A program made the translations under genes and the position numbers. From NCBI GenBank assembly GCA_016932615.1, contig JAFGCN010000026.1:1-13815 (forward strand): DNA of 13,815 nt. Reading direction: 5' to 3'. Origin of the DNA: Candidatus Aenigmatarchaeota archaeon. Its GTDB lineage: Archaea; Aenigmatarchaeota; Aenigmatarchaeia; QMZS01. How positions within the stretch are numbered: position 1 is the stretch's first letter; every line of letters begins with the position of its first letter. Shown piece by piece: positions 10,255 through 11,822 of this stretch. A model generated the notes under the pieces. That model ran no database searches, was not told the DNA's origin, and worked only from the letters and a program-made list of their open reading frames with translations.

Positions 10255-10818
10255 CTATTCCTTTTGCCTGTTCTTCAGCGCCCGATTCGAGAGTTTGTTG
10301 CCTCTAGGCGGCTTCACAGAGTTTCGGTACCACCAGTACCAGGACACAAAAATGAGGGCCAGGAAAACGAACTCCCACAGGAAGTAATGCACAAATCCAA
10401 ATAATTCATAGTTTACCGTTCCAATCCAGATGGAAGTAAATGCCCTGAACGTATTGTAGATGTAGAGTGGTATAAGTAGCCAGAGCGCCTTTGCCCTTTT
10501 TGCTGCCTCTATTCCGGGTGGGAGCATGACAAGGGCAAAAAAGAGATATAGCTGCCGCCATCCTGTGCAGTCAAAAGCCAGGACAGATGAAAAATTGGCG
10601 GTGCTTATGGTGTAGCCAAATGTCTCGAACTGCACTCCGGCAATTTTCAGCAAAAGCGTCACCTGCTGGAAAAGCAGTTCCTGAAGAGGCCTGAATTCAA
10701 AATGAATGTGTGAAAGAATAATTAAAGGCAAAATCAAAATAATTGCTCTTGCAATTGTCTCTGTCCTTTTATTTACCTGCGGATTTTTTCTCTGCACTTT
10801 TTCTGTCCCCTTCCTCAT
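10255..10818 (-). CDS. Archaeosortase/exosortase-family transpeptidase-like protein
   Basis: Integral membrane cysteine protease/transpeptidase-like protein. The family processes C-terminal tripartite sorting signals of surface proteins, with lipid attachment in haloarchaeal ArtA. From the ATG at 10818 it is 187 residues. It has hydrophobic helices at about 22-36, 50-61, 86-100, 111-122 and 143-163. The family's catalytic triad is visible in order: Cys84 in '[10 protein letters not shown]', Arg125 in 'YNTFRAF' and His144 in 'FVHYFLWEF'. The N-terminus is strongly basic and the C-terminal tail is basic and hydrophilic. The ATG overlaps the gap stop as ATGA (4 nt), which decides the start and implies translational coupling. 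An alternative start at 10863 would lie inside gap. Which of the local exported proteins it processes, if any, is unknown. Confidence 0.85.
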
Positions 10819-11822
10819 GCGATTAGCTTCATTAAGTCTTTCAGCCGGTTGGAATAGCCCCACTCATTGTCGTACCATCCGCCGACCTTTATTGTCCTTC
10901 CATTCACTCTCGTGAGGTCTGGGTCAAATATGCAGGAGTGCGGATTTCCGATGATGTCTGAGCTAACTATTGGGTCATCGGCATATTCCAGGATTCCAAA
11001 AAGTGCCTCTGTCTCTGCCTTGAACAGGTTGTTTATCATTTCAGCCGTAACTTCCTTTTTGACGTTTACCACAAGGTCGGTCAGGCTTCCGTCTGGGACA
11101 GGAACCCTTGCAGCTATTCCGTCAAGCTTTCCCTTGAGTGCAGGTATTATCTCGCCAATTGACTTTGCAGCACCGCTCGTTGTCGGAATAATGGACATGG
11201 CGGCAGCTCTTGCCCGCCGTAAGTCCTTATGGGGCAGGTCAAGTATCTTCTGGTCGTTAGTGTATGCGTGAATGGTGGTCATAAACCCGTTTTCTATCTC
11301 AAAGGCATCATTAAGTATGTTTGCCATAGGGGCAAGGCAGTTGGTTGTGCAGCTTGCCATTGAAATTATGCTGTCGCTGTCTTCATAGGTTTCCTCGTTT
11401 ACCCCGAGGACAATTTGCTTTATTTCGCCGTCACCCTTTGGGGGAGCCGAGATGATGACTTTTCTTGCACCAGCAGTAAGGTGCTTTTCCGCGCCTTCCT
11501 TGGTGACGAAGAGCCCAGTTGATTCGAGCACAATATCTACACCTAGGTCTTTCCAGGGGAGGTTAAGCGGGTCTTTTTCTGCCAGTATTTTTATCCTCTG
11601 GTCATCAACTACAATGCAGTCCCCCTCAGCCAGGATTTTATTTTGCAGGACGCCGTGTACGGAGTCATACTTCAAGAGGTGCGCAAGCGTTTTTGCGTCC
11701 GTCAGGTCGTTTATTGCAACTACTTCAAAGTTCTTCTGAAATTCAGGGTCGTTAAAAGTCGTCCTTAGGAAACATCTGCCGATTCTTCCAAAGCCGTTAA
11801 TCGCGATTTTCACGGTCTCCAT
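10815..11822 (-). CDS. gap: Class I glyceraldehyde-3-phosphate dehydrogenase, NAD-type
   Basis: Cytoplasmic phosphorylating GAPDH, converting glyceraldehyde 3-phosphate, NAD and phosphate to 1,3-bisphosphoglycerate. The 335 residues match the bacterial/eukaryotic class I family in length. The Rossmann loop is 'INGFGRIGR' (8-16), the catalytic Cys158 lies in 'SCTTNCLAP', His185 in 'TTIHAYT', and the C-terminal signature is '[11 protein letters not shown]'. Asp39 in 'AINDL' and '[12 protein letters not shown]' (194-205) match NAD-specific glycolytic enzymes, not NADP-linked ones. Most archaea use the unrelated class II enzyme, so class I marks a lineage such as haloarchaea, some methanogens or DPANN, or an old transfer. 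A TATA-like box precedes the ATG by about 22 bp. The downstream archaeosortase gene is coupled by a 4-nt overlap. Confidence 0.96.

Follow-up and report, generated by a model that had tools for sequence, protein, structure and literature searches.

A putative archaeosortase gene overlaps a class I glyceraldehyde-3-phosphate dehydrogenase gene in one Aenigmatarchaeota family

The window, the whole stretch of 13,815 nucleotides analysed here, is contig C26 of a Candidatus Aenigmatarchaeota MAG (1.26 Mb in 29 contigs, 97% complete). Its reverse strand carries gap, a class I glyceraldehyde-3-phosphate dehydrogenase (GAPDH) gene, followed immediately by art, which encodes a membrane protein of the exosortase/archaeosortase family. 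An MgtC-family gene diverges from gap, and the next gene on the same strand past art is fibrillarin-like, with a small ORF of opposite orientation between them (Table 1). Elsewhere in the window, a second 4-nt overlap at 1174-1177 joins a small unassigned ORF and a NUDIX gene (1174-1587 and 674-1177, - strand). A secreted polysaccharide-deacetylase-like protein (DUF2334), encoded at 12903-13814 (+), enters TNTTVNN repeats at the contig end, and the contig probably breaks within this repeat.

Table 1 Features of the gap-art locus and its surroundings, in window coordinates.
Feature	Position	Strand	Basis
MgtC-family gene, divergent from gap	12403..12804	+	PF02308, 138 bits
gap, class I (bacterial-type) glyceraldehyde-3-phosphate dehydrogenase, 335 aa, ATG start	10815..11822	-	TIGR01534, PF00044, PF02800
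ATGA junction, art start codon sharing TG with the gap stop	10815..10818	-	sequence reading
art, exosortase/archaeosortase-family membrane protein, 187 aa from ATG 10818	10255..10818	-	TIGR04178
Possible alternative GTG start of art, codon 8 (no overlap if used)	10795..10797	-	sequence
Catalytic Cys84, codon TGC, in DCTGW	10567..10569	-	sequence and alignment
Catalytic Arg125, codon AGG, in NxxR	10444..10446	-	sequence and alignment
Catalytic His144, codon CAT	10387..10389	-	sequence and alignment
152-aa ORF between art and the fibrillarin-like gene	9637..10095	+	no Pfam or NCBIfam match
Fibrillarin-like rRNA/tRNA 2'-O-methyltransferase, next same-strand gene past art	8970..9572	-	NF003276, 222.7 bits

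The gap product is a plain member of class I: it scores 426.6 bits against TIGR01534 (GAPDH-I, cut-off 367.2), lies well above the cut-offs of PF00044 and PF02800, contains the catalytic CTTNC and His, and is 69-71% identical to its counterparts in family relatives. It departs from the usual only in its downstream neighbour, a position occupied by pgk in two other genomes of the class (G024 and G057).

The art product passes the superfamily signature TIGR04178 (34.3 bits, cut-off 23), as do three family relatives with scores of 34.5-39.8 bits, and falls slightly below the cut-off of the Pfam model Exosortase_EpsH (20.6 against 25.7 bits). It is the sole match of its kind detected in the host genome, and its relatives are 47-52% identical to it. 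On the other hand, it stays under the cut-off of every named subfamily compared, namely XrtX (30.3 against 170 bits), XrtH (23.8 against 86), pacearchaeosortase (22.1 against 80), heimdallarchaeosortase (19.2 against 130) and ArtB (18.8 against 150). Judged by these profile scores, art is a new member of the known exosortase/archaeosortase superfamily, on a branch outside the named subfamilies.

The codons of Cys84, Arg125 and His144 were read directly in the window, and all three residues are invariant in an alignment of 11 art sequences from three families, as are D83, T85, G86, W87, N122 and W148. The first-pass annotation, which had described this triad as intact and gap as a class I enzyme, was thus correct on both points. 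The hydrophobic segments of the sequence and the long helices of an AlphaFold model (pLDDT 84.5, with a small strand segment ahead of the Cys) indicate a polytopic membrane protein. A PDB sequence search retrieved no relative of art, Foldseek returned nothing for the model at E < 0.001, and VIA-align matched it only to unrelated helical proteins. Our literature search found no paper on Aenigmatarchaeota archaeosortases and none on the gap-art pair.

We examined the junction between the two genes directly in the sequence. The gap stop codon TGA occupies 10817-10815 and the art start codon ATG 10818-10816 on the reverse strand, so that the two overlap as ATGA, exactly as first described. With this junction, art and gap would presumably be co-transcribed; read-through from a housekeeping gene could then provide for the expression of art, possibly with coupled translation.

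The overlap presupposes that art starts at ATG 10818, which we assume here, a GTG at codon 8 being another possible start. Should translation begin at this GTG or further in, the spacing to gap would be 17 nt or more, and the overlap would be an effect of annotation. This alternative draws on three observations: in the 11-row alignment the art homologues of the same family begin some 13-15 residues downstream of the ATG at 10818, 135 nt separate gap from art in the relative G009, and GAGGAAGGGG stands a short way 5' of the GTG. However, Shine-Dalgarno-like motifs are hardly more frequent upstream of ATG starts in the host genome than in the background (48 against 36, n=363), and therefore a ribosome site says little and cannot fix the start codon of art. 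In addition, art and gap share 8 nt in the relative G003, where the art start is placed as in its relatives. We therefore regard an annotation effect as a serious but rather unlikely explanation.

To place the junction in its genomic context, we counted neighbouring genes in 726 kb of the host genome. Among 407 same-strand neighbour pairs, 258 overlap or stand within 60 nt of each other, and a 4-nt NTGA overlap is possible in 34. A striking overlap of unrelated genes is thus common in such compact genomes, and reading it as a pathway calls for a survey first.

Within the family, art is present in 6 of the 11 genomes examined. The two genes are neighbours on the same strand in half of these six: G000 (the window genome), G003 and G009. 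G000 and G009, which belong to two genera, share the order MgtC (divergent)-gap-art-fibrillarin, with the fibrillarin-like gene again the next same-strand gene past art; the 152-aa ORF of the window is not present at the corresponding G009 locus. The MgtC-family gene diverges from gap in five relatives. In G001 and G007 gap and art lie on separate contigs, and in these two genomes and G010 art comes after a pilin-like gene; genes for type II/IV secretion F-type membrane proteins adjoin in the two longer of these three contigs. Art was not detected in G002, G004, G005, G006 and G008 (71-85% complete), in all of which gap is present and its locus intact. The survey of close relatives proposed in the first-pass annotation has therefore a divided outcome, the pair recurring in two of the five relatives with art and being absent from the other three.

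In a gap tree, G000 stands outside the other nine family genomes (support 95/95), and from this position the simplest history is one in which the family ancestor already had the pair, with later losses or moves. A tree of art alone is too weakly supported (20/84) to separate one relocation from two old copies.

We then extended the comparison to 156 genomes of the class, many of them incomplete and in short contigs, so that some adjacencies may be missed. Of these genomes, 108 carry art, including 33 of the 39 of highest quality, and 36 carry class I gap. By our own count from two tables, 24 genomes hold both genes; they are adjacent in three, all of one family, and elsewhere lie on separate contigs or at least 16 kb apart (16 kb in G013, 81 kb in G122, 290 kb in G125). 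In most genomes that carry gap, art does not lie beside it.

The neighbours of art, read at 102 loci of the class, reveal a more widespread arrangement. At 54 of the 102 loci, in 13 of 17 families, a DUF460 (PF04312) gene is found no more than two genes upstream of art and in the same orientation. Where the two are direct neighbours (n=51), the DUF460 gene overlaps the reading frame of art in 42 cases, and it either overlaps or stands within 30 nt in 48, taking the longest frames. A gene for a coiled-coil protein follows art at 56 loci, a looser call made with iterated profiles on a low-complexity protein. An example of the complete cassette is locus L074 (8055-9176, 7409-8062 and 5253-7346, - strand). 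In family f13, FtsY follows art at three of four loci, directly in two.

One could imagine that the Aenigmatarchaeota archaeosortase acts within this conserved DUF460-archaeosortase-coiled-coil cassette on a target signal that differs from the tripartite C-terminal signals known so far, the pairing with gap being a late relocation of the middle gene; as a complete account we find this improbable. The arrangement is nevertheless the more useful lead of the two, the gap-art pairing being a local curiosity. The coiled-coil protein ends in P-[VI]-[VI]-[LIV]-E at most loci, a loose form of the motif being present in 36 of 47 complete frames (L176, L186, L194, L199, L229 and others), and this end resembles a C-terminal docking tag.

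We also searched for substrates, reading stretches that cover about 59% of the host genome and running family searches over the whole of it. Several proteins in the stretches read combine a signal peptide with a C-terminal hydrophobic or transmembrane segment and a basic tail, and no motif shared among their C-termini was found there. Across the whole host genome, PGF-CTERM (TIGR04126) matched nothing with an E value of 1 or less, and the best score against the PACE-CTERM S-layer model (NF033506) was 28 bits, with none above the cut-off of 110. The search for sorting signals suggested by the first-pass annotation thus yielded candidate C-terminal anchors with a basic tail in the stretches read, and no common motif or recognised family.

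Some individual candidates were set aside. The weak PACE-CTERM matches are far below the cut-off and fall mostly over S-layer-like repeats. Two of the proteins so matched, L140:7770 and L159:1342, are encoded among ABC transporter genes, a setting that accounts for a plain membrane anchor. Within the window, the 710-aa LTD/CARDB protein (3017-5149) has a C-terminus without a hydrophobic anchor and basic tail. In G007 and G010, art has as neighbour a gene for a very long secreted protein rich in Cys (L056:3-5672, - strand; L059:1231-5937, + strand); both proteins are cut by the contig end before their C-termini and are possible targets.

The art product can be compared with ArtA of Haloferax volcanii, with which it shares the superfamily, the active-site Cys and the presumed cutting of C-terminal anchors (PMC7157517). 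An archaetidylethanolamine route has been proposed for the Haloferax enzyme, and in Methanosarcina artA adjoins pssA (PMC7157517). In contrast, art has no pssA neighbour, and neither a PGF-CTERM protein nor a homologue of the phosphatidylserine decarboxylase PssD was found in the host genome. The same genome gave two CDP-alcohol phosphatidyltransferases, and the archaetidylethanolamine route is therefore not evident in this organism. The pacearchaeosortase/PACE-CTERM pair (NF033505, NF033506) likewise offers a DPANN archaeosortase, and S-layer-like exported proteins of the host match its target model weakly; the host differs from that system in both partners, with art at 22.1 bits against 80 for NF033505 and the S-layer matches at no more than 28 against 110.

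Low scores to all named subfamilies, no recognised target signal and no decarboxylase homologue that would supply an ArtA-type lipid donor could together suggest an inactive relative with the exosortase fold and no working sortase. We consider this quite improbable, as the Cys, Arg and His and the D-C-T-G-W and N-x-x-R motifs are invariant across distant families, and 33 of the 39 good genomes in the class contain the gene. The sequence evidence most likely describes an ordinary enzyme of the archaeosortase family with few or non-canonical targets. By analogy with its superfamily, the art product would be a protease, a small polytopic membrane protein that would use its Cys/Arg/His site to remove the membrane anchor at the C-terminus of a small number of exported proteins. 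Taking the Haloferax enzyme as a further guide, it may then join the newly formed C-terminus to a lipid or another amine. Art thus adds to a deep unnamed archaeosortase branch present in most good Aenigmatarchaeota genomes, cells with a little-studied surface biology.

We finally weighed the two readings of the pairing offered by the first-pass annotation, a tie between surface-protein maturation and sugar flux, and simple genome compaction. Surface moonlighting of GAPDH is known in other organisms. Together with the overlap and its retention in G000, G003 and G009, this would suit a functional operon, in which the two genes are co-regulated to make surface-protein maturation follow sugar flux, or the archaeosortase serves a surface-moonlighting GAPDH; we find such an operon extremely improbable, since only 3 of the 24 genomes with both genes, all in one family, have the pair, G001 and G007 of that family hold the genes apart, neither a signal peptide nor a C-terminal anchor is seen in the sequence of the gap product, and no further sugar gene lies in the unit. 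A tie to sugar flux needs a selective reason, but half of the art-bearing family genomes lack the pair and no second origin is seen in the class. As the pairing does not recur beyond the family, the unit contains no additional sugar gene and the search gave no sorting targets, that first reading received no support.

Genome compaction, on the other hand, agrees with the data: the pair occurs in a single family, in three of its six art-bearing genomes, the upstream partner of art varies by family (DUF460, gap or pilin-like), and its junctions are mostly short or overlapping. A same-strand gene stands within 60 nt upstream of art at 68 of 97 loci. The tight junctions of art with varied partners throughout the class, together with the frequency of NTGA overlaps, therefore indicate that art is normally coupled to an upstream gene with which it is not related. 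We conclude that the gap-art pair is very probably a juxtaposition of two genes inherited in one Aenigmatarchaeota family, in which art is linked to gap by expression and packing and not by function, and we infer that the two products have no metabolic link. In this history, art would have left its usual place in the class, behind the DUF460 gene, and been relocated behind gap in the family ancestor. One point against packing is that the pair has been kept across two genera despite altered spacing and an altered downstream gene, so that mild selection for the pair is possible.

Genes for pilin-like secreted proteins are neighbours of art in families f4 and f16 and in three f1 genomes (downstream at L025, L027, L016, L180 and L222; L055:4033-4578; L059:21-590). 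We do not claim an association of art with pilins, as the two pilin-like groups gave no demonstrable homology. The pilin-like proteins of f4 and f16 end in a conserved C-terminal Trp.
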